DNA of 64,000 nucleotides, taken from NCBI GenBank assembly GCA_030430575.1, contig JAUIKF010000019.1:62001-126000 (forward strand), given 5' to 3'. The position numbers and the translations under genes were made by a program. The notes below the pieces were generated by a model. That model worked only from the letters and a program-made list of their open reading frames with translations. It had not been told where the DNA came from and did not search any database. The stretch is from Bacteroidia bacterium (GTDB lineage Bacteria > Bacteroidota > Bacteroidia > J057). Shown one piece after another: positions 11,001-28,299 of the stretch (positions are counted from its first letter, which is position 1; the number at the start of each line of letters is the position of its first letter).

Positions 11001-14000
11001 CTGCTAATGCTGTTTGTGAGGGGACTACATTTGATGCGACGATAAACCACCAGGCTGACCCTGGCACTTTGGCCTTATATTATAGCACGGATGGGAGCTT
11101 AACTCCCGCACAGTTATATGATTTCCCCAATCATGGAGCCAATAATATTGATCCATTATCAACGGCCATCAATCCGATTGCTTTAGCCACAACCACCACC
11201 GTTTCAAGCTTAAATATCTCGACTGCGGGATCTTATACTATCTATGTCATCCTAGCTAATGGAAATACCCAAATTGTTGATCCAGATTGCTTCCCAATGG
11301 CGACCGCGACAATTACCATCAATTCTCCTGCTGAAGCCAATGCAGGGCTAGACGACTCAGTTTGTGGAAATAATAGCTATCAGCTAAATGGAAGTATTGC
11401 TGGAAGTGCTTCCAGTTCGACTTGGTCGACAAGTGGCGATGGCAGTTTTGATAATGTAAATTCTCTGACTGCGGTATATACCCCAGGTACTACCGATCTT
11501 ACCAATGGCACAGTGATGCTTATCCTTTCCACTGATGATCCTCCAGGCGCTTGTTTGGCAGAGACTGATACCATGATATTGACTGTCTATGATCAACCCA
11601 CGGTTGTGGTGACTGCAAGCGATTCTGTCATTTGTGTAGGGGAAATGGTGAAATTGAGCCGGGTTACTTTTGGTGGAGATTTTGGCTCCCCTCCATTTAT
11701 CTGTGTTTGGGATCATGGCCCTACAACCTGCTTCCCCACTGTTTCTCCTACGGTTACTACGGATTACGCCATCACAGTCACAGACAATAATGGGTGCATG
11801 GCAAAAGATACCATTACCATAACTGTCTTAAATTCAAGTGTAGAAATCACCAGTATAATGGTAGGAAATTGTGTGGAAAATGAAGCAACTGTAGCGGTAG
11901 AGGTTGATTGGACAAATGCGCCGGGGGGAAAAGACATAGAAGTCTCCATAGGTCGCGACTTGAAAATTATACCTGCTCCTGCTGTTGGAAATACAGGTTC
12001 ACAGACAGTTACTTTTATGATGCCTGCGGATTCCAGCCAAAACAATAATGCTTATGTAAGATTTAAGGATATTGGATGTGAAGATTACTATACTTATGAT
12101 CTTCCTGGACCTTGTGAACCCTGTCCCCCATTAGCCCCTTCCTACAGTCTCTGGTGCGATAGCTTATCCGTGATGAAAGGAGAAATAGGTGATGGAACCG
12201 GCTTTTCTTATACAATCAATCAAGGGAGTGTGGCTTGTGGATCCATTGTAATGGCATTAACAGGTGCTGGAGGACCCAATGAAGGCAATGGCGGTTCGGG
12301 AGCTGAGTGTCTGTCATGGGGAACCACCTGCCATACACCAGGCACTTATGTGATGAATATCACCTTTGACGAGCCTATCTCAGGATTTATTCCTGTTGTT
12401 TTTGCTGATGGCTTTATTACCGAATGGACGGCTAGTGTCAATGGGCAACCATTTAATATCTCCGATTGGAAGGCACATGGAAACACTACATTAGGTAGTG
12501 GAGGTACGCGCTACCGCAATGTATTTAAAGCCACCGACAACTTCGCATCATGGCTTACCCATACAGATTCTACCTTAGAAGTAACTACTGCTACCCTTAC
12601 CTTTTACACCGAATTTCCTGCTGGATTTAGTCAAACTTACTGTCCACTGGAATTATTCCTTTATGGCAGTTCAGTGGTACCGTGCTGCCCAACTATAGAC
12701 AGCCTTATTGCTGATAGGACGATATGTTCTGGTGACCCAGTTGATTCGCTTGCTGTTTCTACTATTGAGAATCCTGACAGTATCGCTTTTGTCTATTTTG
12801 CTGGTCCTCAATCAGATACCGCTGTCATTTACTCAGGAGGAGTAGGGATCGATACGATTGAAGTAGCTAATAATCCAGATACCATTGCCTTGACAAATGT
12901 GAGCATTCCAGCATTTGTGAACACTGGAAGCCAGCCTGACACTTTCTATGTGTATGCGATCCAATTTCCCACACCAGCAGATGCTGCTTGTAGGCCTTAT
13001 GATGAGATGTTGGTGATTGTGAACCCTGAACCTACATTTACTTTGAGCAAAGTTGATGAGCAAACTTGTCTCGGAAATGATGGCAGTTTGACTCTGGCTG
13101 GATTGGTGAATGGAGCCGTTTATACCTTGACTTATACCTACAATGGTGGTACGCCAACAGTTCTGACTGGGCAAACTGCAAATTCGAGCGGAGAAATAAC
13201 CTTGTCAAACCTTACGCGAGGGGATTACACCGATATTTCAGTTACAAATATGAATGGGTGTACCAATGCGCCTTCTATGAGTGGTGCTTATGATGTGACG
13301 ATTGCCCCTGCTCCTTGTTATCGGATAGGCAATTTGATTTGGGAAGATTTGGATAATGATGGCAATGCAGAAGTAGGGGAGGTGGGGATAAATGGTGTGA
13401 GTGTGCAATTATTTATGGATGATGATGCAGCCCCTGGCGTATCAGCAGGGGATACGCAATTGGATACAGAAATTACGGTTGCAGGTGGATACTATGTGTT
13501 TGATAGTTTAAGTGCGGGAGACTATTATGTGATCATTGGAGATGGTCAAGCGTCGTTAAATGGATTTATCTCTTCTAATAATGGGGAAGAAAATAATCCG
13601 AATTCAGATGGGGATAATAATGATAATGGGGTCAATGAAGTCACCACCCCCCTCGCGGGCGTAGCTTCGGGAATCATTAGCTTAGGTCCTGGCACAGCAG
13701 AACCAACCAATGAGCAAATAAGGTCAGACAATTCTGGAGATGCTGACCTGGGAACTGCTTTGTCGCCTGACAATCAGTCAAACTATACCTTGGATTTTGG
13801 CTACTTTGTGCCCGTCTCAGTGGGCGATACCGCCTTTGTCGATGCGAATAGCAACGGCTTGCAGGATATGGGCGAAGCACCCGTTCCAGGTGTTACGGTT
13901 ACTTTGTATGACAATGCTGGCAATCAGGTGACAACCGATGCTGAGGGCAATGCCATTACAGGCACCACCACTACGGATGCCGATGGGGCTTATCTTTTCG

Positions 14001-17000
14001 ATAACCTACCTCCAGGTAGCTACTATGTAGTCTTTGATGTGAGTACTGCAACCGATGGCAATGCTGCGCTTTACATCGCAACTACCCAAAATGCGAACGG
14101 TGGCACCCTCGATCCTAACGATTCAGATATCGATGCTTTGGGCGTTTCAGATACGACGAACTTCCTGACTTCAGGGGATTCAGACCTGACGCTGGATGCG
14201 GGCTACTTTGTGCCAATCAGCGTGGGCGATACCGCCTTTGTCGATGCCAATGGCAATGGTTTGCAGGATGCAGGGGATGTGGGCATTCCAGGGATTACGG
14301 TTACTTTGTATGACAATACAGGTAACCAAGTGACAACGGATGCTCAAGGCAATCCCATTACTGGCACCACGACCACCGATGCCGATGGGGCTTATCTTTT
14401 TACCAATCTGCCATCAGGCAGCTACTACGTCATCTTTGATGTAAGCACCGCTACCGATGGTAATGCTGCGGACTATGTAGCAACTACTCAAAATGTGAAC
14501 GGCGGTACGCTCGATCCGAATGATTCGGACATTGACGCCTTGGGCGTTTCTGATACGACGAATGTCTTAACCACTGGTCAGTCGGACTTGACTTTGGATG
14601 CGGGCTACTTTGTGCCCGTCTCAGTGGGCGATACCACCTTTGTAGATGCGAATAGCAACGGCTTGCAGGATCTGGGCGAAGCCCCCGTTCCTGGCGTGAC
14701 TGTTACCCTATATGACAATGCAGGCAATCAGGTGACAACCGATGCCGAGGGCAATGCCATCACAGGCACCACCACCACGGATGCCGATGGGGCTTATCTT
14801 TTCGATAACCTACCTCCAGGCAGCTACTATGTGGTCTTTGATGTGAGTGCCGCGACCGATGGCAATGCTGCGCTTTACATCGCCACTACCCAAAATGTGA
14901 ACGGTGGCACCCTCGATCCCAACGATTCAGATATCGACGCTTTGGGCGTTTCAGATACGACCAATTTCCTGAATTCAGGGGATGCAGACCTGACGCTAGA
15001 TGCGGGCTACTTTGTGCCAGTTAGCGTGGGAGATACAGTATGGGTGGATAATAATGGCAATGGTTTGCAGGATGCAGGCGAGCCAGGCTTAGGCGGCGTG
15101 ACTGTCACCCTTTACGATGCCGCCACCAATACGGTAGTAACGACAGATGCCAATGGCGCTACCATTACAGGTAGCACCGTGACGGCTGGTACAGGCCGCT
15201 ATCGTTTTGATAACCTGCTTCCAGGTAGCTATTATGTGGCCTTTGATGTGACAACAGCCACCAATGGCAATCTCTATACAGCCAGCCCACAGGATGCCAA
15301 TGGCAATGCCAATGATGAAGATGATTCAGATGCTGACCCCAATCCCACCAGTGCTACTTATGGTCAAACAGCACCTACCGCCTTCCTGAATTCTGGTGAG
15401 GCGGATACTACGCTGGATGCGGGTTATTATCAGGGACTCAGTTTGGGTGATTTGGTGTGGTTGGATTCTGATGCTGATGGCACCCAAGATGTGGGAGAAC
15501 TGGGCATAGACGGCGTGGTGCTAGGCCTTGAGATGTATGATCCTACGGCGAATGGCGGTGCAGGAGGCTTTGTCCCTGCTACCGATGCTGGAGGGGCGAC
15601 CGTAGCCAATGCCACGACTTCTGCTGGCGGTTTATACAACTTTGGCAACCTGCTACCTGGGGAGTATCGCGTGACTGTTTTGCCCAGTAACTGGCAAGCT
15701 GGGGGGGTATTTGGCCCAGGTGGTGCGCAGGAGGGTGCTGTAGGTACTGCAGGCCAAGGCATGAACGATACCGATAATACCGATGACAATGGGGACCAAG
15801 ACTTTGTGAGCAATCCGCCAGGTGGAGTTGTAGGCAATCCAATAGAATTGGCGGTGGGCCTTGAGCCGATCAACGATGGAGACACCAATCCCAATACCAA
15901 CTTGACGATGGACTTCGGCTTTGCGCGTAATTTGAGCTTAGGCAGCCGTGTATGGTTTGACACCAATAATGATGAACTCCTCAATGGGACTGAAGTAGGG
16001 ATAGATGGTGTATTGGTAGAAGTCTATCGCCATGATGGCATGGGGGGCTACACCTTTATCGAAGATACGTTGACACGAGATGGAGGCTATTACCTCTTCT
16101 CTGACTTGCCAGTAGGAGACTATGTGGTAGTACTCCCTGCGAATAACTTTGCTGCTGGAGCCATCCTGGAAGGTTATTACAGCAGCGGCACGAGCCGCCT
16201 TCCCAATGGAAACTTCAATCAGACAAATGCGCCTGATCCCGATGTTGACCAAACGGATAGTGATGATAATGGAGCCTTTGCCATCACTGGACCATTTTTC
16301 GGGGCTGTGATTTCAGATGAAATCACACTGAACGTACCTAATCCGCTCAATGAGCCAGATGCTTATCCCATTACTTTTACTGATCCAGCTGCTGACAACC
16401 TGGGCGACTATACGGTAGACTTTGGCTTCTACACGATGAGAGCAGGGAATCAGGTATGGAATGATGTGAATAATAATGGCCTATTTGATGGAGGAGAGCA
16501 GCCCTTGGCAGGTGTACCTGTGATCTTACTGGCTGCTGATGGGGTTACTCGGATTGATTCTGTAGGGACCAATAATAGCGGTCGTTATATGTTCAATGGC
16601 CTAGCTGAAGGGGATTACATCATCAAGGTGCGTCCACCAGCAGGCTATGTCAGCAGTACAGGTACGGTAGGGAGCCATACTGGCCCTTATGAACCTGCAC
16701 CCGATGCCGAGACCATTAGTATAAATGATGATGACAATGGTAACAGCACTTTTGCAGGACCCGATTCTGGTTGTGTATTTACGACCCTCTTCAGCCTTAC
16801 CCCTGGTGCTGAGCATCAGGTTCAAGATAACCTTGGGCGGACGAGTGATCGTCGGATTGATTTTGGTCTCTTTGCGCCATTCTCTATCGGTAACTATGTC
16901 TGGAATGACAATGGGCTTGGGACCCTGTGCAATAATGGCCAACACGATACGGGCGAGGCTGGCATAGATGGGGTAGCTATGTGCATTTACCTCGACCCAG

Positions 17001-20000
17001 ATGGCGATGGAGATTTGAGCAATGCTACTCTGATTGCTGATGATACAACTGAAGCAGGGGGATTTTATCTCTTTGATTACCTCGTTGCAGGCAACTATGT
17101 AGTGGAGGTAAAAGCTTCCAACTTTGCCCCAAGCGCAGTCCTCGACTCTATGATTTCGGTGACGGTGACAGAAACCAATCCAAACAATGATGGAGATCAG
17201 AATGACAATGGAATTGATGATCCAGACCGTGTCATAAACGGTATTTTCTCTGGCGTCATAGACCTTAGTGGGAATGAACCCCAACTAGAGACGCCCCTCC
17301 ATCCAACAGATGGAGATGGTACACCTGTGGACATCAACGCCAATATGAGTGTAGACTTTGGCTTTACCCGCCCTGCCTATATCGGTAACTGGGCTTGGGA
17401 GGACCTCAACCGCAATGGCCTACAAGATGCAGGTGAACCTGGCGTAGATGGCATTATCGTTGATCTATTGCCTTGGCCGCCAGATCCCACCATTCCACCA
17501 GCTTCTCGCCCAGCCTTGGCGACAGATACTACCGCAAGTGGTGGCTACTACCTCTTTGAAGTAGCTCCTTGTACTTCCTATTACTTGCGTTTCCGCAACT
17601 TGCCAACAGGGTATGTCTTGACCCAGGACGAAGTAGGTTCCAATGACACCATCGATTCAGATGTAGAGATGGTCAATTTCTTGGCGATGTATGCTACGCC
17701 AAGACCTGGCGAACAAGACACAACTTGGGATATCGGTATCTATTTGCCTACTGCTAGTCTCGGCGATTATGTATGGGAAGATGTGAACGAAGATGGCTTG
17801 CAGGATGTCAATGAGCCTCCTGTACCAGGCGTAAGAGTTGTCCTATACAACTGCCTAGGTGATAGCCTCGATGAGGACTTTACCAATGCCCAAGGCCGCT
17901 ATCTCTTTGATAGCCTTCAGCCTGGAGATTACTACGTCGTCTTTACCGACCTCCCAGTAGGCTATGAAGATTATGTATTTACGGGCAAAGATCTTTTCCC
18001 TGATACCCAAGACTCAGATGCCGATTCGATGACAGGCCAGACGGCATGTACTACGCTGGATCCTGGAGAGGTAGATTTGATGTGGGATGCAGGGATTTAT
18101 GTACCCAAAGCTTCTATTGGCGATCGGGTGTGGGCTGATTTAGATGAAGATGGCGTTCAAGGCCCTGGAGAACCTGGCTACTCCAATATCAAGGTGATTT
18201 TGCATGATTGTACTGGGACGAAATTGGACAGTACTACCACGGACTTCCGTGGGGAATATGAATTCTCGGGCTTATATCCTGGCGATTACTATGTGAGCTT
18301 CTCCGACATCCCATTTGGCCTTACCTTCAGCCCACAAGATGTAAATACGACAACCGATTCTCTAGATAGTGATGTCGACCCAACAGGCAGAACGATATGC
18401 ACCCACTTGGATGCGGGAGAAGATGATCCTAGTTGGGATGCAGGCCTTTACCTCAATACGGCTTCCATTGGCGACCGTGTGTGGTTTGATGACAACGAAG
18501 ACGGTATCCAAGATGCTGGAGAAATGGGCGTGCCTGGTGTTCGGGTTGTCCTTTATAATGGCGCTACAGGTGGCGTTGTAGGCCTCGATACCACAGATGC
18601 AAATGGCCTCTATTACTTTGACGACCTGATACCTGGAGATTATTACATCGGTTTTTCCAATATTCCTTCGGGGTATGTCCTGAGTCCTCAGGACGTGGGG
18701 ATGAATGACTCCATCGATTCAGATGTAGATTCTTTGACTTCCTTTACAGCAGTGACTACGCTTGACCCAGGAGAGGATGATCCCACGTGGGATATGGGGA
18801 TTCATGTAAACCGGGCGAGTATCGGAGATAAAGTTTGGGAAGATTTGGATGAAGATGGAAGACAAGATACAGGAGAACCCGGTGTGATGGGCATAAAAGT
18901 GGTTTTGCATGACTGCACAGGAGCGCGTTTAGATAGTATGTTGAGTGGAATAAATGGCGAATATGTATTTGACAACCTACTTCCAGGCGACTACTATGTG
19001 AGCTTTAATGACTTACCTTCAGGGTATCTTTTTACCGCTCAAGATTCTACTTCAGCTTCTAATAATACCGACTCTGATGCCGACAAGCAGACAGGAGCTA
19101 CGGTGTGTACCACCCTCGATCCTGGAGAAGATGACGACAGTTGGGATGCGGGTATTTATCGTCCCAATGCGAGCCTCGGTAACCGCGTATGGGATGATTT
19201 GGACGAAGATGGGGAACAAGATGCAGGGGAACCAGGTGTGGCAGGAATAAAGGTCATCTTGCATGATTGTACGGGTTTGAAGCTTGATAGCACCGTTACT
19301 GGACCCAATGGTATTTACAATTTTAATGAGCTTCAGCCTGGGGATTATTATGTGAGTTTCCCTCAACTTCCCGTAGGTTACGTCTTCAGCCCGCAGGATG
19401 CGAGTGGGGATGATGCAACGGACAGTGATGCCAATGCCCAAGGAGTGGTGGCTTGCACCACCCTCGACCCAGGTGAAAATGATGATTCACACGATGCGGG
19501 TATTTATTTGCCCAAATCCTCCATCAGTAACCTCGTCTGGAATGACCTCGATGAAGACGGCGTACAAGACGCAGGTGAGCCTGGCGTGCAAGGCGTCAAA
19601 GTCATCCTTCACGACTGTACAGGTGCCAAATTGGATTCTATGCTGACCGATGCCAATGGGGAATACCTCTTCGCCAACCTTACCCCTGGCGACTACTACG
19701 TAAGCTTTGCAGACTTGCCTACAGGCTATGTATTCAGTCCGCAGGATGCGAGTGGCGACGATGCCACCGACAGTGATGTAAACGCCCAGGGCGTGGATGC
19801 TTGCACGACCCTTGATCCTGGCGAAGATGACGACTCACACGATGCAGGCATTTATTTACCCAAATCCTCCATCAGTAACCTCGTTTGGAATGACCTCGAT
19901 GAAGACGGCGTACAAGACCCAGGCGAGCCTGGCGTGCAAGGCATCAAAGTCATTCTTCACGACTGTATAGGCACCAAATTGGATTCTATGTTGACCGATG

Positions 20001-23000
20001 TTAATGGGGAGTACCTCTTTGATGAACTGAACCCTGGCGACTACTACGTCTCCTTTGCGGATATTCCTACAGGCTATGTCTTCAGCCCACAAGATGCCAG
20101 CGGCGATGATGCCACCGACAGTGATGCCAATGCCCAAGGCGTAGATGTCTGCTCGACCCTCGATCCTGGCGAAGATGACGACTCACACGATGCGGGTATT
20201 TATTTGCCCAAATCCTCCATCAGTAACCTCGTTTGGAATGACCTCGATGAAGACGGCGTACAAGACCCAGGCGAGCCTGGCGTGCAAGGCATCAAAGTCA
20301 TTCTTCACGACTGTACAGGCACCAAATTGGATTCCATGCTGACGGATGTTAATGGGGAATACCTCTTTGATAACCTCGCACCAGGCGACTACTACGTGAG
20401 CTTTGCAGGCTTGCCTACAGGTTACGTCTTCAGTCCACAGGATGCGAGTGGTGACGATGCGACCGATAGTGATGTGAATGCGCAAGGCGTAGCCGCTTGT
20501 ACGATCCTCGACCCAGGAGAAAATGACGATAGCCATGATGCGGGTATCTATTTGCCTAAATCTTCTATCAGTAACCTCGTCTGGAATGACCTCGATGAAG
20601 ACGGCATCCAAGACGTAGGCGAGCCTGGCGTACAAGGCGTAAAGGTCATCCTTCACGACTGCACAGGTACCAAACTGGATTCTATGTTGACGGATGTTAA
20701 TGGGGAATACCTCTTTGACAACCTCACGCCTGGCGACTACTACGTGAGCTTTGCAGACTTGCCTACAGGCTATGTCTTCAGCCCACAGGATGCCAGCGGC
20801 GACGATGCCACCGACAGTGATGCCAATGCCCAAGGCGTAGATGTCTGCTCGACCCTCGATCCTGGCGAAGATGACGACTCACACGATGCGGGTATTTATT
20901 TGCCCAAATCCTCCATCAGCAACTTCGTCTGGAATGACCTCGATGAAGACGGCATCCAAGACGTAGGCGAGCCTGGCGTACAAGGCGTAAAGGTCATCCT
21001 TCACGACTGTACAGGCACCAAATTGGATTCTATGCTGACAGATGTTAATGGGGAATACCTCTTTGATGAACTGAACCCTGGCGACTACTACGTCTCCTTT
21101 GCGGATATTCCTACAGGCTATGTCTTCAGCCCACAAGATGCCAGTGGCGATGATGCCACCGACAGTGATGTAAACGCCCAGGGCGTGGATGCTTGCACCA
21201 CCCTCGACCCAGGTGAAAATGACGACTCACACGATGCGGGTATTTATTTACCTAAGACTGCTATTGGCGATAGGGTCTGGGACGACCTCGATGAGGATGG
21301 TATACAGGACGCAGGCGAGCCTGGTGTCCAAGGCATCAAAGTGATCTTGCATACCTGTGCTGGCACCAAACTCGACAGCATGACCACTGATGTCAATGGC
21401 TTGTATACCTTTGATAACCTGGCCCCAGGAGACTACTATGTGAGCTTTGCTGATTTACCTGCTGGGTATTCATTTAGCCCCCAGAATCAGGGAACTGATG
21501 ATACCGCAGATAGTGATGTCGGGGCAAATGGAGCCACCATTTGTACCACCCTTGATCCAGGCGAAAACGATCCTACTTGGGATGCAGGGATTTTCCAGCC
21601 TACTGCTAGTATAGGGGACAAGGTCTGGGAAGATCTCGATGAAGACGGTGTCCAAGACCCTGGCGAGCCAGGCGTGCAAGGCGTAGTCGCATTGCTCTAT
21701 ACCTGTGCGGGTCAGCTGGTCGGCCAGGACGTGACGGACGCTAACGGGGAATACGGCTTTGACGGTCTGCTCTCAGGAGACTACCACGTCGTATTTACCA
21801 ATTTGCCTACAGGCTACACGATCAGCCCAATAGACCAAGGTGGGGACGACGCCACCGACTCTGATGCTGCTGCAAACGGCCAAACGGCTTGTGTACACCT
21901 CGATCCTGGAGAAGATGACACCACAGTAGATGCAGGGATTTATTTGCCCAAAGCAAGCATCGGTAATGTCGTCTTTGAAGACCTCAACCGCGACGGTAAG
22001 CAAACGCCTGGTGAGCCAGGCGTGCAAGGCGTAAAGGTGATAATTCACGATTGTATAGGGACGAAGCTAGACAGTACCACCACCGATGCAAGTGGCATCT
22101 ATGGATTTGATGACCTGGTTCCTGGGGACTATTATGTGAGCTTTGAACTGCCCACGGGTTATTCCTTTAGCCCCAAAGACCAAGGCGGTGATGATGCCAA
22201 GGACAGTGATGCCGATGTAAATGGAGAGACCGTTTGCACGACGCTGGATCCAGGAGAAGACGATCCTACTTGGGATGCTGGGATGTATCAGCCTTTTGCC
22301 TCTATAGGCAATAAGGTCTGGGAAGACCTCGATGAAGATGGCATCCAAGATGCGGGAGAGCCGGGAGTACAGGGAGTGACGGTGACCTTATACGATTGTT
22401 CTGGGGTGTTAATTCGCTCGACGACTACAGATGCCACAGGCCGTTACTTCTTTGGTGGCCTTCCTACTGGGGACTACTATGTCGTCTTTAGCAATCTACC
22501 GTCAGGGTATGTGCTTTCTCCACAAGATGCTGGCGCAGATGATGCGACTGATAGCGACGCTAATCCTAGCGGACAGACAATATGCACCCATCTTAATCCA
22601 GGGGAAAACGACCTGACGTGGGATGCGGGGATTTATTTGCCTAAAGCCTCCATCAGCGACCTCGTATGGGAAGACTTGGATGAAGACGGTGTTCAAGATT
22701 CTGGCGAGCCAGGTGTACAGGGTGTGAAGGTGATCCTTCACGACTGTACAGGCACTAAGCTTGACAGCACGATTACAGATGCCAATGGCAATTACCTCTT
22801 CGATGAACTCACCCCAGGGGACTATTATGTGAGTTTCTCAGACTTGCCCGCAGGCTATGTCTTCAGCCCTCAAGATCAAGGCGGAAATGATGCGCTAGAT
22901 AGTGATGTCAATGCGAATGGGGAAACACCTTGTACCACCCTTGATCCAGGCGAAGATGATGACTCACTGGATGCTGGGATCTATTTACCCAAAGCATCTA

Positions 23001-26000
23001 TCAGTGACCTGGTATGGGAAGATTTAGATGAGGACGGCGTTCAAGATGCTGGTGAGCCAGGCGTCCAGGGCGTGAAGGTGATTCTTCACGACTGTACAGG
23101 CACCAAGCTTGACAGTACCACAACCGATGCCAATGGCAACTACCTATTTGATGAACTCACGCCAGGGGACTATTATGTAAGTTTCTCAGACCTGCCCACA
23201 GGTTATGTCTTCAGCCCTCAAGATCAGGGCGGAAATGATGCTCTGGATAGTGATGTCAATGCAAATGGGGAAACACCTTGTACCACCCTTGATCCAGGCG
23301 AAGATGATGGCTCACAGGATGCTGGGATTTATTTATTCAAGGCCTCTATTGGCGATACAGTTTGGGAAGATTTGGATGAAGATGGCATCCAAGATGCTGG
23401 CGAGCCAGGGGTCCAGGGGGTAACAGTTACCCTTTTTGATGGCACAGGTAGACGCATGGGCCAAACCACAACGGATGCCAACGGCAACTACCTCTTTGAT
23501 AACTTGATGCCTGGCGACTACTTTATCATCTTTAGCAATATGCCTACAGGCTATCTCATCAGTCCCCAAGATCAGGGAGGCAATGATGTGCTGGATTCTG
23601 ATGTCGGGGTAAATGGGCAGACAATAACGACGACCCTTGATCCGGGAGAAAATGATATGACTTGGGATATGGGGATCTATTTGCCCAAAGCCTCCATCAG
23701 TGACCTTGTCTGGGAAGATTTGGATGAAGACGGTGTTCAAGATCTTGGAGAGCCTGGCGTACAAGGCATCAAAGTGATCCTTCATGACTGTACAGGTATC
23801 AAGCTTGACAGTACCACAACGGATGCCAATGGCAACTACCTATTTGACAACCTGATCCCAGGGGACTATTACGTGAGTTTCTCAGACTTGCCGACAGGCT
23901 ATGTCTTCAGCCCTCAAGATCAAGGCAGAAATGATGCGCTAGATAGCGATGGCAATGCGAATGGGGAGACGACTTGCACGACGCTAGGTCCAGGGGAAGA
24001 TGATGACTCACAGGATGCTGGTATTTATTTACCCAAAGCCTCTATTGGCGATACGGTATGGGAAGATTTAGATGAAGACGGCGTCCAAGATGCTGGCGAA
24101 CCAGGTGTCCAAGGGGTGACGGTCACCCTCTTTGATGGTGCTGGCACCCAAGTGGGCCAGACCACGACCGATGCCAACGGCAACTATGTCTTTGATAACC
24201 TCACACCAGGAGACTACTACGTCGTCCTTAGCAACTTGCCCACAGGCTATGTCCTTAGCCCCCAAGATCAGGGCGGAGATGATGCCTTGGATTCTGATGC
24301 AGGGGCGAATGGTCAGACAGTTACGACAACCCTCGATCCAGGCGAAAATGACTTGACTTGGGATGCGGGGATTTATTTGCCCAAAGCTTCTATCAGTGAC
24401 CTTGTCTGGGAGGATTTGGATGAAGACGGCGTTCAAGATGCTGGCGAGCCAGGGGTCCAGGGCCTAAAAGTGATCCTTCACGACTGCACTGGCACCAAGA
24501 TTGACAGTACGACAACAGATGCCAATGGCCTGTATAGTTTTGACAACCTGACCCCAAGTGACTATTATGTGAGCTTTTCAGACTTGCCCGCAGGCTATGT
24601 CTTCAGCCCTCAAGATCAGGGGGGAAATGATGCCCTAGACAGTGATGTCGGTGCTAATGGGGAGACACTGTGTACGACCCTTGATCCAGGCGAAGATGAT
24701 GACTCACAGGATGCCGGTATTTACCTCCCAGATGCCAGCATTGGCGATACGGTTTGGGAAGATTTGGATGAAGACGGTATACAAGATCCTGGAGAGACAG
24801 GCGTTGGAGGCGTTACCGTAACGCTATATAACTGCGCAGGCGTACAGATAGCGCAGACAACCACTGACCTAAATGGCCAATACAGTTTTGATAACCTGCC
24901 TGCAGGAGATTATTATGTCATATTCTCAGGCATCCCAACAGGCTACGTCTTTAGTGCAAAAGACCAGGGCGGAGATGATGCGCTTGACAGTGATGCAGAT
25001 GCTAATGGCGAAACAGATTGTATAAGTGTGAACCCAGGCGAAGATTATGACGACTTAGATGCAGGCATCTCCTTGCCTGATGTGAGCATCGGTGATACCG
25101 TCTGGGAAGACCTCGATGAAGATGGAGTTCAAGATGCTGGAGAGCAAGGGGTACAGGGCATCAAAGTGATCCTTCACGACTGCACAGGTGCCAAGCTTGA
25201 CAGTACAACAACCGATGCCAATGGCTATTATAGCTTTGACAACCTGACGCCAGGCGACTATTACGTGAGCTTCTCAGATCTACCTGTAGGTTATGTCTTT
25301 AGCCCCCAAGATCAGGGGGGAGATGATGCCCTAGATAGTGATGTCAATACAAATGGAGAGACCCTTTGCACGACGCTTGATCCAGGGGAAGATGATGATA
25401 GCCAAGATGCGGGCATTTATTTACCTAAAGCATCTATCGGTGATTTGGTCTGGAATGATCTGGATGAAGATGGCGTGCAGAATGCAGGTGAACCAGGGGT
25501 TCAAGGCGTCACGGTGACCCTATATGATGGTGCGGGTACGCAAGTAGCCCAAACCACAACGGATGCCAACGGCAATTACCTCTTTGACAACCTGACTCCA
25601 GGCGACTACTACGTTGTCTTTAGCAACCTGCCTGCTGGTTATACCCTCAGTCCTCAAGATCAGGGTGGAGATGATGCCCTAGACTCAGATGCAGGGGCAA
25701 ATGGTCAGACGGCCACGACCACCTTGGGGCCAGGAGAAAATGATATGACTTGGGATGCGGGTATTTACTTGCCCACAGGCTCAATCGGTGATACGGTCTT
25801 TGAAGACACTGATGGGGATGGGGTGCAGGATGTTGGTGAAACAGGTATGCCCGGGGTAAGCGTGGACCTCTACAATTGTACAGGGCAATGGGTAGCTCAG
25901 GCTACTACAGATGCCAATGGCAACTACATTTTCGACAACCTGCCTGCTGGGGATTATTATGTGGTCTTTTCAGGCCAGCCTACAGGCTATTTCTTTAGCC

Positions 26001-27343
26001 CACAAGATCAGGGTACTGACGATGCTTTGGATTCAGATGCCGATTCAACTGGCCAAACAGGCTGCTTTACCCTTGATCCTGGCGAGGACAAGGACGATGT
26101 GGATGCAGGTATTTATTGCAATACCCTCACCACTTGTGTAGCTACGCCATTCAATCCTGCAGGCTGGTCAATGTATTTTACCACAGGCATCTATCCTGCG
26201 AGCCAGGAATACATTTTTGCCACGAATGGTACCCTGCTTACTTATGGAGATGGCACGGCCAATCTCATTGGCACAGTAGTCAATAAGACCAATGCTTCAG
26301 TACAGTGGGAACTGGATATCTGGTTTGAGAATAAGCGTGATTGGGGAGCCTGGTCAGCCTTAGGTCGACAGGCCAAAGGCAGTCATCATGGCCCTTACCA
26401 GACATGGGATTACTATGAAATGGACTCCACTCGGAGCATTGCGGTTGGCAAAGGGACCATGGCAGGGGACACCCTCTTCATGCGCCATGATCCGCCCAAT
26501 TACCTCTTTGCCTTCCAAGTAGGCCAAGGAGCCAATGACAAAGATGGTGACTTTGGGGCTTCGGGATGGTTTACCTTCTATTCAGCCTCTGGATTCTATA
26601 TGGGACACGGAGACTTTAACGTAGATCTCAATTGCCAGACAGCTTGTGTTCCAATCAATCCAACGCCACCCATGATGACGGCTGTGGCGATGCTTGAAGG
26701 AGGATTCCAGCCTACTACAGGGTTGATGGCTACCCAACTCAATTCATCGGGTATCTTGCCACTGAGTCAACCCTATAACACGGCTCCTTGGAACTATATG
26801 GGAGCGGAAAGTGTGAGTGCCATTCCTAACGATTCTATCGTTGACTGGGTGCTGTTAGAGACGCGTGATGCGCTTCAGCCAGCACAGGTGCTTTCTCGTC
26901 AGGCTGCCTTTATCAATGAAGATGGAGAGATAGTTGGGTTAAATGGAACCTCCTTGCTACAAGCCAATGTGCCACAAGGGGTAGATAGCTTCTACATCGT
27001 GGTCAACCATAGAAATCACTTGTCAGTCATGAGTGCTTCGCCTGTGAAGAAAATGGGCAATGTATTCTTCCAAGATTTTAGCAGGAATATACAAGACCTC
27101 TATACCGATGGGGCCTTGCAGAATCCCCCGGCCAATACCGCCACCTCTGGAAGGATTCTCATGATGGAAGGGGACCAAAGTACTGACGACCAGATCAACT
27201 CAATTGATATTGGCCAAGTGATGAATCAGACCTTCTTGACAGGCTATCGAAATGCCGATGTCACGATGAACGGTTTGGTCAATTCACTGGACGTCGGGCG
27301 AGCGATGCAAAATTACTTTAAGCGGTCGCATGTCCCTAAATAG
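5063..27343 (+). CDS. Giant secreted protein with 34 SdrD_B-like repeats (7426 aa)
   Basis: The N-terminus is a signal peptide (basic start, LLLFLSFLPFLAFG, likely cut before QQIQWG). Residues ~25-510 resemble an SBBP-type beta-propeller ('IVWACVIGG', 'SGNILVAGNT', 'LVYSSYLGGSENE'). Residues ~535-2180 are Ig/PKD-like modules paralogous to the upstream gene. Residues ~2350-2540 form a Cys-containing module without a counterpart in the window. Residues ~2753-7018 are 34 Cna-B/SdrD_B-type repeats; each begins like 'SIGDxVWEDLDEDGxQDxGEPG', an EF-hand-like Asp loop expected to bind Ca2+ and stiffen the rod. Residues ~7019-7426 form a non-repetitive end closing with two dockerin-like motifs (DDQINSIDIG and NGLVNSLDVG). 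There is no YPNP-type T9SS domain. The frame is uninterrupted over 22 kb despite strong repetition. Family knowledge suggests a long extracellular adhesin or filament; the exact function is unknown. Start ATG follows 'caagag'. Confidence 0.93.
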   Translation: MVISKKLYLLLFLSFLPFLAFGQQIQWGTFIDASGRTSGQNARGYQIKVGPDGFVYSIGYGRYLTFQGNPTADTVITHGPGSGNSNNNDTYVLKMSPDGNQIVWACVIGGTNGDLPGWFEFDSSGNILVAGNTSSSNFPVTTDADQPIWGGGEDLFFTKLTQNGELVYSSYLGGSENEYMSYGFISGDGTIFFNGWSGTVVWPSINQPTFPTKPGAYQATGDFATFGDDYFLGRLNADMSFNQGTYLFPRDPNSYREGYLLEETPSGDLFIQGSASNAYISDIPTTSGALIQSTDANASGSYYMVMSRDLSKVKYCTADLSGNRLSYQFQKSNGNIVIRSDVLPANTSYFPLSTNSAYGFKTDGSPTSVFAELTGDLSTIINTMVINDDIATGLRINGEDGNGNYHASASNPTSDAMLVTSPGGSYYWGSIAKINSDFTELLYASRTLGGNRYYDEQNCTWYISPSVGCGTIFGTFYTSDTAYNTAGDTLNGYWLGDRTTINLCSGQRGEPYITAINFPSITSGNVITAPASSYCINSIPEVLDGDEPVVPLPSLKIGYNDFEQNFVLHYQWQVSTAGPSGPFSDINLATEEDYVPEAEASAGSRWYRRIAIAGNIEAFPNCVQPDTSNVVEVVTLSNISHSTDMPEEAYGLCPGSPINVSTTLSASPDGTFGPYTWTLSDISVDTVVLSGSTGVGSFAANGVPAAGLYQLEVTDTRGCVSADTLTVESMVIDAGPATVFTCDSSSLVIGPSGPAPQWENYATNSYSWLPTSNLNNAALLKPTVSPVPASGDSITYSIYVNGCLSDSVKVKNETLTPLPALPADTICQGDSLNMGAGITPQPDVTYQWLPGVNIVDDTDPNSKLIGSDAPAGVNTTTYYLTAMAGNTGCVQTATQDITVYKQPNIPFDSDDPYSCFIDYYGQGPALTLGTGSESGISYSWDVQVTNISATTGLPSTVDALAYLSSTTASSVVFSLTGPEIPLGGMADGDYDLRYIRTSFNTAEPSCMRMDTAVIHYSPPCDGIPGFYCTALTPPNTCGTEGTLIGAEAVSGGLYYEWTPVAGLTDPYTGLPLVAGGPHPGQVYANPDTTTEYHLAINYPNRSGDTLCTIDILVFPAIFNTPAINIPPVAGGCAGTPIQIGSAPLSGLVYSWEPTAGLSDPNIANPAATITENTTYVVTAVDTATGCLAMDTVAVQIVPILVNAGLDGSFCDAAGYSGSIGALAANAAYSYQWTASSGAVVFGNATDAQTTVTIPASTGTVSIYLAVTDLNTSCSQSDTAIFTATGGPVGYAPATTVRVCDGDSVIIGAPAPTGTNYTYAWTSASTGNGLLPSESTKPEPSITPAGAGPWTYDVTVTETGPTSLTCTSNYTVTVSRPTEPVVTVSPAAVPCASAGVTIGVTNSPTAIWTFSWSPTDHIVGFAHNDMRRIRVYPPDTTTYTLTATYQTGCVRTFDIIVPGADYVAEISDDELELCEGDVNPTFSLNSIPAGATVAWTSSPAGATAYLNSTTANNPIFNITTAPAGTYTYTATVNYGTGCVSSASLTVRLGKAIPDIAGADQSICLGECVTIGTAAVSGLSYAWTTAPYDPSAVISFPGDASPEVCPTQNTTYKLTYIDVTSGCTFEDYVSVQINGVVPTLSVISAYKDCQNTSGTATVDLNSLITTNTGTSTSFWLDATASVLPIATPTMVEAGTYYIKSADASGLCTVVEPTTITFNPIPQVSGQAVANCVAQTGYLALTGFAAGDRFDYTLGMSYTGGASYATASVIPFSGVVATGLPLPAISGSSFYTVRVFNADSCSQDITLELISPCCPDIDSLAYSALSICTGSNINFADYFQNPDPDITLTFHASKADAEAGMPTISGVQMPAVAGTYWVRSQLTGETCNRVDSFTVMLTPAPAPTEICPGQTFTISAPTNFTNVQWFRDGVEVPAVGSFSDTFAVTQPGVYTFTGLDASLCVVNICCPITFESCCPDLNSLALSANAVCEGTTFDATINHQADPGTLALYYSTDGSLTPAQLYDFPNHGANNIDPLSTAINPIALATTTTVSSLNISTAGSYTIYVILANGNTQIVDPDCFPMATATITINSPAEANAGLDDSVCGNNSYQLNGSIAGSASSSTWSTSGDGSFDNVNSLTAVYTPGTTDLTNGTVMLILSTDDPPGACLAETDTMILTVYDQPTVVVTASDSVICVGEMVKLSRVTFGGDFGSPPFICVWDHGPTTCFPTVSPTVTTDYAITVTDNNGCMAKDTITITVLNSSVEITSIMVGNCVENEATVAVEVDWTNAPGGKDIEVSIGRDLKIIPAPAVGNTGSQTVTFMMPADSSQNNNAYVRFKDIGCEDYYTYDLPGPCEPCPPLAPSYSLWCDSLSVMKGEIGDGTGFSYTINQGSVACGSIVMALTGAGGPNEGNGGSGAECLSWGTTCHTPGTYVMNITFDEPISGFIPVVFADGFITEWTASVNGQPFNISDWKAHGNTTLGSGGTRYRNVFKATDNFASWLTHTDSTLEVTTATLTFYTEFPAGFSQTYCPLELFLYGSSVVPCCPTIDSLIADRTICSGDPVDSLAVSTIENPDSIAFVYFAGPQSDTAVIYSGGVGIDTIEVANNPDTIALTNVSIPAFVNTGSQPDTFYVYAIQFPTPADAACRPYDEMLVIVNPEPTFTLSKVDEQTCLGNDGSLTLAGLVNGAVYTLTYTYNGGTPTVLTGQTANSSGEITLSNLTRGDYTDISVTNMNGCTNAPSMSGAYDVTIAPAPCYRIGNLIWEDLDNDGNAEVGEVGINGVSVQLFMDDDAAPGVSAGDTQLDTEITVAGGYYVFDSLSAGDYYVIIGDGQASLNGFISSNNGEENNPNSDGDNNDNGVNEVTTPLAGVASGIISLGPGTAEPTNEQIRSDNSGDADLGTALSPDNQSNYTLDFGYFVPVSVGDTAFVDANSNGLQDMGEAPVPGVTVTLYDNAGNQVTTDAEGNAITGTTTTDADGAYLFDNLPPGSYYVVFDVSTATDGNAALYIATTQNANGGTLDPNDSDIDALGVSDTTNFLTSGDSDLTLDAGYFVPISVGDTAFVDANGNGLQDAGDVGIPGITVTLYDNTGNQVTTDAQGNPITGTTTTDADGAYLFTNLPSGSYYVIFDVSTATDGNAADYVATTQNVNGGTLDPNDSDIDALGVSDTTNVLTTGQSDLTLDAGYFVPVSVGDTTFVDANSNGLQDLGEAPVPGVTVTLYDNAGNQVTTDAEGNAITGTTTTDADGAYLFDNLPPGSYYVVFDVSAATDGNAALYIATTQNVNGGTLDPNDSDIDALGVSDTTNFLNSGDADLTLDAGYFVPVSVGDTVWVDNNGNGLQDAGEPGLGGVTVTLYDAATNTVVTTDANGATITGSTVTAGTGRYRFDNLLPGSYYVAFDVTTATNGNLYTASPQDANGNANDEDDSDADPNPTSATYGQTAPTAFLNSGEADTTLDAGYYQGLSLGDLVWLDSDADGTQDVGELGIDGVVLGLEMYDPTANGGAGGFVPATDAGGATVANATTSAGGLYNFGNLLPGEYRVTVLPSNWQAGGVFGPGGAQEGAVGTAGQGMNDTDNTDDNGDQDFVSNPPGGVVGNPIELAVGLEPINDGDTNPNTNLTMDFGFARNLSLGSRVWFDTNNDELLNGTEVGIDGVLVEVYRHDGMGGYTFIEDTLTRDGGYYLFSDLPVGDYVVVLPANNFAAGAILEGYYSSGTSRLPNGNFNQTNAPDPDVDQTDSDDNGAFAITGPFFGAVISDEITLNVPNPLNEPDAYPITFTDPAADNLGDYTVDFGFYTMRAGNQVWNDVNNNGLFDGGEQPLAGVPVILLAADGVTRIDSVGTNNSGRYMFNGLAEGDYIIKVRPPAGYVSSTGTVGSHTGPYEPAPDAETISINDDDNGNSTFAGPDSGCVFTTLFSLTPGAEHQVQDNLGRTSDRRIDFGLFAPFSIGNYVWNDNGLGTLCNNGQHDTGEAGIDGVAMCIYLDPDGDGDLSNATLIADDTTEAGGFYLFDYLVAGNYVVEVKASNFAPSAVLDSMISVTVTETNPNNDGDQNDNGIDDPDRVINGIFSGVIDLSGNEPQLETPLHPTDGDGTPVDINANMSVDFGFTRPAYIGNWAWEDLNRNGLQDAGEPGVDGIIVDLLPWPPDPTIPPASRPALATDTTASGGYYLFEVAPCTSYYLRFRNLPTGYVLTQDEVGSNDTIDSDVEMVNFLAMYATPRPGEQDTTWDIGIYLPTASLGDYVWEDVNEDGLQDVNEPPVPGVRVVLYNCLGDSLDEDFTNAQGRYLFDSLQPGDYYVVFTDLPVGYEDYVFTGKDLFPDTQDSDADSMTGQTACTTLDPGEVDLMWDAGIYVPKASIGDRVWADLDEDGVQGPGEPGYSNIKVILHDCTGTKLDSTTTDFRGEYEFSGLYPGDYYVSFSDIPFGLTFSPQDVNTTTDSLDSDVDPTGRTICTHLDAGEDDPSWDAGLYLNTASIGDRVWFDDNEDGIQDAGEMGVPGVRVVLYNGATGGVVGLDTTDANGLYYFDDLIPGDYYIGFSNIPSGYVLSPQDVGMNDSIDSDVDSLTSFTAVTTLDPGEDDPTWDMGIHVNRASIGDKVWEDLDEDGRQDTGEPGVMGIKVVLHDCTGARLDSMLSGINGEYVFDNLLPGDYYVSFNDLPSGYLFTAQDSTSASNNTDSDADKQTGATVCTTLDPGEDDDSWDAGIYRPNASLGNRVWDDLDEDGEQDAGEPGVAGIKVILHDCTGLKLDSTVTGPNGIYNFNELQPGDYYVSFPQLPVGYVFSPQDASGDDATDSDANAQGVVACTTLDPGENDDSHDAGIYLPKSSISNLVWNDLDEDGVQDAGEPGVQGVKVILHDCTGAKLDSMLTDANGEYLFANLTPGDYYVSFADLPTGYVFSPQDASGDDATDSDVNAQGVDACTTLDPGEDDDSHDAGIYLPKSSISNLVWNDLDEDGVQDPGEPGVQGIKVILHDCIGTKLDSMLTDVNGEYLFDELNPGDYYVSFADIPTGYVFSPQDASGDDATDSDANAQGVDVCSTLDPGEDDDSHDAGIYLPKSSISNLVWNDLDEDGVQDPGEPGVQGIKVILHDCTGTKLDSMLTDVNGEYLFDNLAPGDYYVSFAGLPTGYVFSPQDASGDDATDSDVNAQGVAACTILDPGENDDSHDAGIYLPKSSISNLVWNDLDEDGIQDVGEPGVQGVKVILHDCTGTKLDSMLTDVNGEYLFDNLTPGDYYVSFADLPTGYVFSPQDASGDDATDSDANAQGVDVCSTLDPGEDDDSHDAGIYLPKSSISNFVWNDLDEDGIQDVGEPGVQGVKVILHDCTGTKLDSMLTDVNGEYLFDELNPGDYYVSFADIPTGYVFSPQDASGDDATDSDVNAQGVDACTTLDPGENDDSHDAGIYLPKTAIGDRVWDDLDEDGIQDAGEPGVQGIKVILHTCAGTKLDSMTTDVNGLYTFDNLAPGDYYVSFADLPAGYSFSPQNQGTDDTADSDVGANGATICTTLDPGENDPTWDAGIFQPTASIGDKVWEDLDEDGVQDPGEPGVQGVVALLYTCAGQLVGQDVTDANGEYGFDGLLSGDYHVVFTNLPTGYTISPIDQGGDDATDSDAAANGQTACVHLDPGEDDTTVDAGIYLPKASIGNVVFEDLNRDGKQTPGEPGVQGVKVIIHDCIGTKLDSTTTDASGIYGFDDLVPGDYYVSFELPTGYSFSPKDQGGDDAKDSDADVNGETVCTTLDPGEDDPTWDAGMYQPFASIGNKVWEDLDEDGIQDAGEPGVQGVTVTLYDCSGVLIRSTTTDATGRYFFGGLPTGDYYVVFSNLPSGYVLSPQDAGADDATDSDANPSGQTICTHLNPGENDLTWDAGIYLPKASISDLVWEDLDEDGVQDSGEPGVQGVKVILHDCTGTKLDSTITDANGNYLFDELTPGDYYVSFSDLPAGYVFSPQDQGGNDALDSDVNANGETPCTTLDPGEDDDSLDAGIYLPKASISDLVWEDLDEDGVQDAGEPGVQGVKVILHDCTGTKLDSTTTDANGNYLFDELTPGDYYVSFSDLPTGYVFSPQDQGGNDALDSDVNANGETPCTTLDPGEDDGSQDAGIYLFKASIGDTVWEDLDEDGIQDAGEPGVQGVTVTLFDGTGRRMGQTTTDANGNYLFDNLMPGDYFIIFSNMPTGYLISPQDQGGNDVLDSDVGVNGQTITTTLDPGENDMTWDMGIYLPKASISDLVWEDLDEDGVQDLGEPGVQGIKVILHDCTGIKLDSTTTDANGNYLFDNLIPGDYYVSFSDLPTGYVFSPQDQGRNDALDSDGNANGETTCTTLGPGEDDDSQDAGIYLPKASIGDTVWEDLDEDGVQDAGEPGVQGVTVTLFDGAGTQVGQTTTDANGNYVFDNLTPGDYYVVLSNLPTGYVLSPQDQGGDDALDSDAGANGQTVTTTLDPGENDLTWDAGIYLPKASISDLVWEDLDEDGVQDAGEPGVQGLKVILHDCTGTKIDSTTTDANGLYSFDNLTPSDYYVSFSDLPAGYVFSPQDQGGNDALDSDVGANGETLCTTLDPGEDDDSQDAGIYLPDASIGDTVWEDLDEDGIQDPGETGVGGVTVTLYNCAGVQIAQTTTDLNGQYSFDNLPAGDYYVIFSGIPTGYVFSAKDQGGDDALDSDADANGETDCISVNPGEDYDDLDAGISLPDVSIGDTVWEDLDEDGVQDAGEQGVQGIKVILHDCTGAKLDSTTTDANGYYSFDNLTPGDYYVSFSDLPVGYVFSPQDQGGDDALDSDVNTNGETLCTTLDPGEDDDSQDAGIYLPKASIGDLVWNDLDEDGVQNAGEPGVQGVTVTLYDGAGTQVAQTTTDANGNYLFDNLTPGDYYVVFSNLPAGYTLSPQDQGGDDALDSDAGANGQTATTTLGPGENDMTWDAGIYLPTGSIGDTVFEDTDGDGVQDVGETGMPGVSVDLYNCTGQWVAQATTDANGNYIFDNLPAGDYYVVFSGQPTGYFFSPQDQGTDDALDSDADSTGQTGCFTLDPGEDKDDVDAGIYCNTLTTCVATPFNPAGWSMYFTTGIYPASQEYIFATNGTLLTYGDGTANLIGTVVNKTNASVQWELDIWFENKRDWGAWSALGRQAKGSHHGPYQTWDYYEMDSTRSIAVGKGTMAGDTLFMRHDPPNYLFAFQVGQGANDKDGDFGASGWFTFYSASGFYMGHGDFNVDLNCQTACVPINPTPPMMTAVAMLEGGFQPTTGLMATQLNSSGILPLSQPYNTAPWNYMGAESVSAIPNDSIVDWVLLETRDALQPAQVLSRQAAFINEDGEIVGLNGTSLLQANVPQGVDSFYIVVNHRNHLSVMSASPVKKMGNVFFQDFSRNIQDLYTDGALQNPPANTATSGRILMMEGDQSTDDQINSIDIGQVMNQTFLTGYRNADVTMNGLVNSLDVGRAMQNYFKRSHVPK
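6666..11595 (+). repeat. Segmental duplication, copy 2
   Basis: This is the counterpart of 1-4450 inside the giant gene. It carries an extra block at about 10500-10975 (residues ~1810-1970), whose first part resembles the very last module of the upstream protein (about 4741-5000). Module order has therefore been rearranged between the paralogues. Confidence 0.8.
13319..26116 (+). repeat. Array of 34 SdrD_B/Cna-B-like protein repeats
   Basis: I counted 34 occurrences of the 'S(I/V/L)(G/S)(D/N)xVWxD' repeat start between residues ~2753 and ~7018. Repeats 1-14 vary in length (about 117-165 aa) and sequence. Repeats 15-34 (19163 onward) recur at 348 bp (116 aa); the equivalent Pro codon falls at 19163, 19511, 19859, 20207, 20555, 20903, 21251, 21599, 21947, then 22292 (one codon shorter), 22640 and so on to 25772. 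Repeats 16-20 form a near-identical block (SSISN(L/F)VWNDL). From repeat 25 on, a 'KVILHDCTG' type alternates with a 'VTVTLxDG/YNC' type. Confidence 0.92.
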
Positions 27344-27465: not shown

Positions 27466-28299
27466 ATGCATTATTCCATATACCTACAGAAAATTGTGAC
27501 ATTGCTTCTATTGAGCCTGCTGGCTGTTAATCTTCCTGCCCAACAGCTCACCGTGAGCTATGAGACAGACGATTTAGGAAATGATCAACACCTCGTGAGG
27601 GTATATCTTCAAAGTACAGGCAGTGAGCAACTAAAGTTAGGGGCCATCAACCTTTCCGTTGCTTATGATGGGGAGTGTTTAACGTCAATAGGGCAGGAAA
27701 CGATATTTGATGAGGATTGGACCACGCATCTTGTGGACAATCAGCAATATACTGATATGGCCCTTTTCTACGAATCTGCGCTCCTCGATACGCGTTTGCA
27801 GTATGGAAATGCCGATCCTGGCCTGCCAATGACCGCCTCCATCATGGTACCATCGGCAACAGAAGCTCCCCTCCAGGTGATGGAACTCACCTTTGAAGGC
27901 GCATGTTCGGAAACTATTTACCTAGAACATGTTTCAGAAAATCCCCTCAATCAATACGCTGATGACCTTTTTAGGTCGATTGATTATGAGATTATCCATC
28001 CGCCGCAACATGCGACGACCTCTGTGGAAGAAGATTTCACCAGTAGCTTAGAAGTGGTAGCTTTTCCCAATCCCACAGAAGGCCCCGTGACGGTAACTTT
28101 CAAGGGAGAAATCCCTCAAGGGAAATACCAATTTCTGCTAATAGACAGCCAGGGAAGAACCCTTAGAAAAACTAAGAGAACACTATCTCGTGCTTTTGAC
28201 CTAACCTTAGCCGCTTATACAGAAGGGGTGTACTATTTGGAAGTCAGGTCGATTGCTGATGATAAACACTTTCGGACGATTACCTTGATTAGAAAATAA
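27466..28299 (+). CDS. T9SS-sorted small secreted protein
   Basis: 277 aa. The signal peptide is clear (hydrophobic LLLLSLLAVNLPAQQ). Residues ~25-180 form an all-beta region with two Cys ('YDGECL', 'EGACSE') that I cannot assign firmly; the pattern of a sandwich domain with 'VYLQSTG..LKLGAINLSVAYD' resembles cohesin-like folds. Residues ~195-277 are a type A T9SS sorting domain ('AFPNPTEG', 'GVYYLEVRS', ending ITLIRK), so the protein should be exported across the outer membrane and cell-surface attached or released. It lies 122 bp after the giant gene on the same strand, separated by a hairpin and the TTCAAA tract. No good ribosome-binding site is visible, as is common in this phylum. A partnership with the dockerin-like end of the giant protein is possible but unproven. 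Confidence 0.8.
   Translation: MHYSIYLQKIVTLLLLSLLAVNLPAQQLTVSYETDDLGNDQHLVRVYLQSTGSEQLKLGAINLSVAYDGECLTSIGQETIFDEDWTTHLVDNQQYTDMALFYESALLDTRLQYGNADPGLPMTASIMVPSATEAPLQVMELTFEGACSETIYLEHVSENPLNQYADDLFRSIDYEIIHPPQHATTSVEEDFTSSLEVVAFPNPTEGPVTVTFKGEIPQGKYQFLLIDSQGRTLRKTKRTLSRAFDLTLAAYTEGVYYLEVRSIADDKHFRTITLIRK

Follow-up and report, generated by a model that had tools for sequence, protein, structure and literature searches.

In 2018 the B domains of staphylococcal surface proteins were reported to have the greatest mechanical strength of any protein fold, with calcium holding the fold together; in the passages of that report, B domains loaded with calcium withstand forces above 2 nN, and those deprived of it are far weaker (PMC6232131). 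According to the structural passages of PMC13174682, SdrD crystals have sheets DAG and CBEF, an F0 strand adjoins G, and the three calcium sites are found mainly towards DAGF0; the B1 domain of SdrD retains a folded core in EDTA. Covalent internal bonds, which we propose here for an SdrD_B protein, are familiar from other extracellular proteins of the same fold class, the CnaB-type pilins (FimP, SpaA) and the isopeptide families: FimP, as described in passages of PMC3485203, carries one disulfide in each of two CnaB-fold domains, and passages of a survey of isopeptide proteins place SdrD_B among the isopeptide families and record disulfides in several such families (PMC12617251). A further point of comparison is titin, in which the I-band Ig domains have a CysB/CysF/CysG cluster; the relevant passages of PMC5766482 give a pair of these cysteines in 43 of 101 domains, all three in 21 and a single one in 24 of 101, and state that the intradomain disulfides shorten the contour length and vary between domains.

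The protein described here comes from the window, by which we mean the whole 64,000-nucleotide stretch of DNA that was analysed. An ORF of 7,426 residues on the + strand (5063–27343) begins with a hydrophobic, signal-like stretch read from the sequence, has a match to PKD in its N-terminal part, upstream of the repeats, continues with 34 tandem repeats matching SdrD_B (PF17210) at 13325–26131, and ends in a C-terminal module of 403 residues (26132–27343, + strand). It is probably an exported rod of SdrD_B domains. Repeats 1–10 (13325–17758, + strand) are 126–168 residues long, and repeats 11–34 (17759–26131, + strand) are 115–119 residues long. The C-terminal module has a weak dockerin-like match below the cut-off (Dockerin_1, E 0.057), and its last part (26924–27343) resembles the ends of two other giant SdrD_B proteins, the ORFs of loci L069 and L071: all three end in (S/T)HVP(K/R) after two Asp-rich dockerin-like loops, possibly a sorting or anchoring module. 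The gene downstream (27466–28299) matches Por_Secre_tail (T9SS sorting) by Pfam with 29 bits against a cut-off of 27, while the NCBIfam model stays below its cut-off, at 19.6 of 23 bits. The host genome (8.16 Mb in 127 contigs) has 79 SdrD_B matches, mostly in the window ORF and in a second giant ORF, that of L069 (G000:C66:322000-339930, - strand, 5,287 residues). Contig C77 of the same genome carries, at about 40000–61000, clustered large ORFs in which RCC1 repeats abound (53 matches).

The window repeats have in common with the B domains of SdrD and SdrG the family, the fold and the acidic calcium-loop motifs. The window protein differs in having tens of repeats and in belonging to the Bacteroidota, and above all in a pair of cysteines: in the SdrD B repeats 10ps B1, 10ps B2 and 4jdz B1, cysteine is absent at both of the sites described below. 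All 34 repeats were split and aligned, and the sites are numbered after repeat 25 (22652–22999, + strand, 116 residues), in which the codon of Cys32 lies at 22745–22747 (+ strand), directly after strand B (residues 26–31), and that of Cys94 at 22931–22933 (+ strand), directly before strand F (residues 95–97). The preliminary description had counted 20 repeats with both cysteines, four with neither and none with one among repeats 11–34, with the first cysteine in “LHDC/LYNC” and the second in “xCTTLDPGE”; both count and motifs are right, the first site also occurring as “LHTC” and both sites in similar variants. The 20 paired repeats have TGC or TGT codons at both sites. The four repeats lacking both, all on the + strand, are 13 (18467–18820), 27 (23348–23695), 29 (24044–24391) and 33 (25436–25783); site 32 is glycine in each (GGC or GGT), and site 94 is threonine (ACG) in 27, 29 and 33 and valine (GTG) in 13. 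The pair is found in none of repeats 1–10, three of which (8, 9 and 10) have other cysteines; repeat 9 (16886–17380) has two off the pair columns, one of them right after a five-residue insert in the A–B loop. Repeat 34 has a third, extra cysteine at position 112 (26117–26119, + strand).

From this pattern the preliminary description had drawn strong evidence for a disulfide, and here the window proves a weak witness, since a single clade could hold all of its cysteine-less repeats. In a tree of repeats 10–34 with the columns around the sites removed, two state changes suffice, and uniting the five unpaired repeats (10, 13, 27, 29 and 33) costs 0.13 log-likelihood units (p-AU 0.50). The window could therefore record one event copied by duplication, and its pattern appears to need only about one or two evolutionary events. 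A rod that alternates between cross-linked and uncross-linked units near its end, as had also been suggested, is right insofar as repeats 25–34 are mixed, but their order is irregular, with runs of two, one, three and one paired repeats separated by the single unpaired repeats 27, 29 and 33. The unpaired repeats 27, 29 and 33 belong to one subtype (“TVTLFDG/TVTLYDG”) and most of their neighbours to another (“KVILHDC”), so that the arrangement looks like the duplication of mixed units, not a designed alternation. All-or-none cysteines in one array are insufficient for predicting a disulfide, because duplication can create such a pattern, and relatives are needed.

Domains were therefore gathered by profile from the organism's own genome, from genomes of its family, order and phylum and from named contigs, and placed on one HMM. 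In a first set of 428 distinct full-length domains, 54 have both cysteines, 374 neither and none a lone cysteine at precisely these columns; two domains come close, with cysteine at columns 30 and 34. The enlarged set of 590 domains, in which near-duplicate rows were kept (L143 and L163 are the same region twice), has 108 with both, 478 with neither and four with Cys94 only. A held-out set was taken from 40 regions of 32 previously unused genomes, which a profile built from pair-free domains had picked out; its 136 domains comprise 87 with both, 44 with neither, four with Cys32 only (all from locus L263) and one with Cys94 only. Together, and with the window included, 726 distinct domains have both in 195 cases, neither in 522 and a single one in nine, where independence would expect 54.8 with both; the two cysteines thus covary within one SdrD_B domain. 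These frequencies carry a bias from the profiles and listings used to choose regions, by which the pairing should be less affected. They exclude 158 distinct partial domains from the enlarged set and three from the held-out set, which covered under 95 of the 116 match positions or were gapped at the sites.

Over the 726 domains the weighted phi of Cys32 and Cys94 is 0.97, the first of 31,137 pairs of residue features, the next having 0.67; direct coupling analysis (DCA) likewise puts 32–94 first, with a z of 20.2 against 11.0 for the next coupling. An odd cysteine is not generally shunned in this family, because 64 of the 590 domains have exactly one, nearly all at other columns. After the pair itself, the columns that differ most between the paired and unpaired classes are 59, 28, 71, 91, 4 and 57. 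Besides Bacteroidota, the pair is present in two contigs that bear the label Krumholzibacteriia and one with the label Methanosarcinaceae; such labels can err in assembled genomes. We regard an intra-repeat disulfide between Cys32 and Cys94, which would limit the unfolding of each module, as the likely explanation; the disulfide of the preliminary description is thus well supported, although by the relatives and not by the window itself.

The covariation could also arise by descent alone, if arrays grew by duplication of two repeat subtypes, one carrying the cysteines and one lacking them, and the two residues were inherited together unbonded. Much in the window is compatible with this: the five unpaired repeats can form one clade with two changes, as described above, and repeats 16–20 (19523–21262), a recent local expansion, are each 91–94% identical to their nearest copies. 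Across loci the question is one of how often the pair was gained or lost. A tree of the 590 rows, with the columns around the sites removed, has 29 changes at Cys32, 31 at Cys94 and 31 of the joint state, of which the starred (well-supported) branches leave three independent changes, all three joint (sign test p 0.25); the trees are poorly supported because the domains are short. A clade test was made with 86 rows from 23 loci holding both kinds, with at most three paired and three unpaired rows per mixed locus, the unpaired rows being those closest to paired ones, and with L102, L137, L139, L143 and L152 omitted as duplicates or fragments. Forcing all paired domains into one clade lowers lnL by 113.8 and is rejected (p-AU 0.0097); the best tree has 17 changes, of which its starred branches force only one. 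Within the window, moreover, paired repeats 22, 24 and 31 each resemble repeat 29, which lacks the cysteines, more than they resemble any other paired repeat, for repeat 31 by only 68 versus 67% identity, and other residue pairs in the family stay far below the phi of 0.97. We read these results as several joint gains or losses of the pair, and consider descent alone improbable.

The preliminary description had named two observations that would speak against the bond, a repeat with a single cysteine and a model with the two cysteines far apart. Single-cysteine repeats are absent from the window, with 0 of 24, but are found in the relatives, with nine of 726 domains. The nine bear on the geometry of the sites. 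Four have a cysteine in strand E, at 57 or 59: L152 has Cys59 and Cys94; L181 and L239, which share one layout and one genus code (g95), have a strand-E cysteine at 57, aligned as an insert, with Cys94 and two more cysteines each (four in total); and the domain of L263 at 281–398 has three, at 32, 59 and 63. Two more, in L163 and L143, are the same misaligned linker, one region counted twice; two further singles of L263 have several other cysteines; and the last, L263 at 526–638, has Cys32 and no other. Outside the nine, L082 has a cysteine in the B–C loop together with Cys59, a partial domain of L076 has Cys32 and a strand-E cysteine at about 57, placed by eye, and a partial domain of L174 has Cys32, with a clear partner absent. 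Cysteine at columns 56–60 occurs in seven domains; because five of these hold exactly one partner at 32/34 or 94 (the other two having no other cysteine), a residue of strand E near 57–59 seems able to replace either partner. Such substitutes are few and partly ambiguous. Other cysteine pairs exist in the family: a recurrent one at columns 74 and 86, between F0 and F, in five domains of L116 and L120 (titled Planctomycetota), and one at columns 61 and 91, in one domain each of L124 and L129, where the two columns match an E–F pair predicted by DCA.

The family assignment of the repeats is firm, with PF17210 scores of 127.8 bits for repeat 25 and 138.1 for repeat 33 against a cut-off of 29.7. 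AlphaFold2 models were made of repeat 33 from an alignment of 96 domains lacking the pair (mb047de1aeb32, pLDDT 96.6) and of repeat 25 from 46 paired domains (mbf3e5f6b73dd, pLDDT 95.7), and both have the same strands: A 2–7, B 26–31, C 36–41, D 47–49, E 56–63, F 95–97 and G 108–111. The model of repeat 33 has the SdrD B fold, superposing on three SdrD entries with Z 19.5–20.0 and an rmsd of 1.1–1.2 Å over 110–111 residues (B1 of 8vdk: Z 20.0, 1.1 Å, 110 residues); a PDB search with the paired profile returned SdrD, UafA and remoter folds. The acidic calcium-loop motifs are DxDxDG-like at 8–13, D83-S84-D85 and D107, and calcium binding is predicted from these motifs. A CnaB isopeptide bond is formed from a strand-A lysine and a strand-G asparagine, with a catalytic glutamate or aspartate on strand E. 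The same motif is given in passages of PMC12617251. By inspection, repeats 11–34 lack this set of residues: core positions 58, 60 and 62 of strand E are Y, V or I, and F or L, with an acid in none of the 24; Lys4 occurs in repeats 14, 22 and 24, and an asparagine just after strand G in 12, 13, 14 and 34.

Where the two sites lie relative to each other can be judged from the couplings in domains that lack the pair. DCA of these finds B–E pairs (30–61, 28–61) and E–F pairs (61–91, 57–96); the strongest, though weak, partner of column 32 is 56 and that of column 94 is 57 (z 2.7 each), and 32 and 94 are uncoupled to each other (z -0.4). The two sites thus seem to share one end and the outer face of the domain, flanking the start of strand E. 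Since B and F are next-nearest strands across E, the Cα spacing in an ideal sheet would be about 9.6–10 Å. A disulfide has a Cα limit of roughly 7 Å. The ideal-sheet spacing would therefore be slightly too wide, and the bond would need local departures from the sheet; by DSSP of the models, residue 31 is the last of strand B and F has no pairing at 92–94, and a departure at these places could close the gap. A crude Cα model built from the DCA pairs put 32–94 at 23 Å, against an intra-repeat bond. It was set aside as too loose and is given little weight, because it missed its controls (32–58 at 19 Å and 34–59 at 17 Å), though the DCA registers and the cysteine substitutions suggest closeness.

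As for the identity of the partners, 69 of the 195 paired repeats stand without a paired repeat on either side. The bond partners should therefore lie within one repeat or in separate molecules. The second case would be one of lateral cross-linking, with reciprocal 32–94′ and 94–32′ disulfides between side-by-side rods at the outer CBEF face. By residue alternation and DCA partners both sites appear to point outward from the same sheet, at a spacing of about two strands that would fit a partner related by two-fold symmetry, and such bonds would also give covariation within a repeat; the substitute cysteines of strand E, however, are most simply intra-domain, and some loci (L104 and L108) have a single paired domain, so that we think lateral bonds quite unlikely. 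A metal or cofactor site formed by the two cysteines would bring two thiols into a calcium-binding domain family, yet a further strongly conserved cysteine or histidine near the pair is absent (column 30 is mostly Y or F, with histidine in 11%) and the calcium sites of SdrD, in the passages cited above, are largely on the DAGF0 side (PMC13174682); we give this very little credence. Bonding of Cys94 to Cys32 of the following repeat was dropped as scarcely credible, for although paired repeats often adjoin (both members are paired in 86 of 477 adjacent pairs), it fails for the 69 isolated ones, the joint absence falls within one repeat and not across a junction, and the two sites apparently share one end of the domain. 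The isolated paired repeats point instead to the intra-repeat bond.

If the Cys32–Cys94 disulfide within each repeat is correct, the following would be expected of the rod. In the paired members of repeats 11–34, which are transthyretin/CnaB-like β sandwiches, the two thiols would be oxidised after export to one disulfide per repeat, passing over the start of strand E. The host genome has three matches to the DsbA family over the cut-off and no match to VKOR. The disulfide would close a loop of 61 residues (33–93) that comprises strands C, D, E and F0 and the F0–F calcium loop. Because the bond would enclose residues 33–93, pulling could free only some half of the chain: by simple arithmetic, a stapled repeat pulled from its ends would release about 55 residues instead of about 116, or roughly 15 nm instead of 37 nm. 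A stapled repeat should also retain more of its fold upon calcium loss. The staple would not be needed for folding as such, because SdrD B1, which has no such pair, keeps its folded core in EDTA, as the passages of PMC13174682 have it. With 20 of the 24 C-terminal repeats stapled and four not, most of the rod would be inextensible, and the few unpaired repeats could still be released to their full length. The mechanical role, like export, oxidation and loading, is what we infer for this protein.

The paired repeats may be unevenly placed along the arrays. In 25 mixed arrays of at least four domains, among them those of the window, L069, L071, L231 and L238, the mean position of the paired repeats is shifted towards the C-terminal end in 19, towards the N-terminal end in four and in neither direction in two, a tally in which L102, L137, L139, L143 and L152 are omitted, partial domains count as unpaired, some arrays are cut by locus ends and some are related to each other. 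In L069, with 29 SdrD_B repeats, the pair is found in the last four only. The C-terminal bias may be a real regularity. One could go further and see in positions 32 (strand B), 57/59 (E) and 94 (F) an evolvable three-site cysteine cluster on one face, from which lineages draw different pairs and which, with stapled repeats mostly C-terminal, would be a bacterial, extracellular counterpart of the titin cluster and a per-repeat code of extensibility in a surface rod of perhaps 0.1–0.2 µm; we offer this as a speculation with the odds against it. The likeness to titin, insofar as the passages of PMC5766482 describe it, lies in a tandem array whose domains use alternative cysteine pairs from one cluster. 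The differences are that titin has another fold, a buried cluster and common single-cysteine domains, whereas the sites in the family of the window repeats are on strands B, E and F and are nearly all-or-none.

A disulfide in a domain of this class is of a kind already known, because such bonds have been described in CnaB-type domains in passages of PMC3485203 and PMC12617251. Those of FimP are elsewhere in the fold, one joining the start and end of loop β1–β2 and the other sheet S6 to hairpin β22–23, as given in the same passages of PMC3485203, and the passages of PMC12617251 on disulfide-rich families name neither SdrD_B nor the Cys32/Cys94 pair. Searches of the open-access literature found no mention of this pair in SdrD_B; as far as we found there, neither the placing of the two cysteines, nor their nearly all-or-none occurrence, nor the substitute cysteines of strand E had been described. 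For a fold regarded as held by calcium, a staple in some repeats only would, if true, be a second, calcium-independent lock, and the stapled and unstapled repeats of one protein would be natural matched pairs for measuring each lock.
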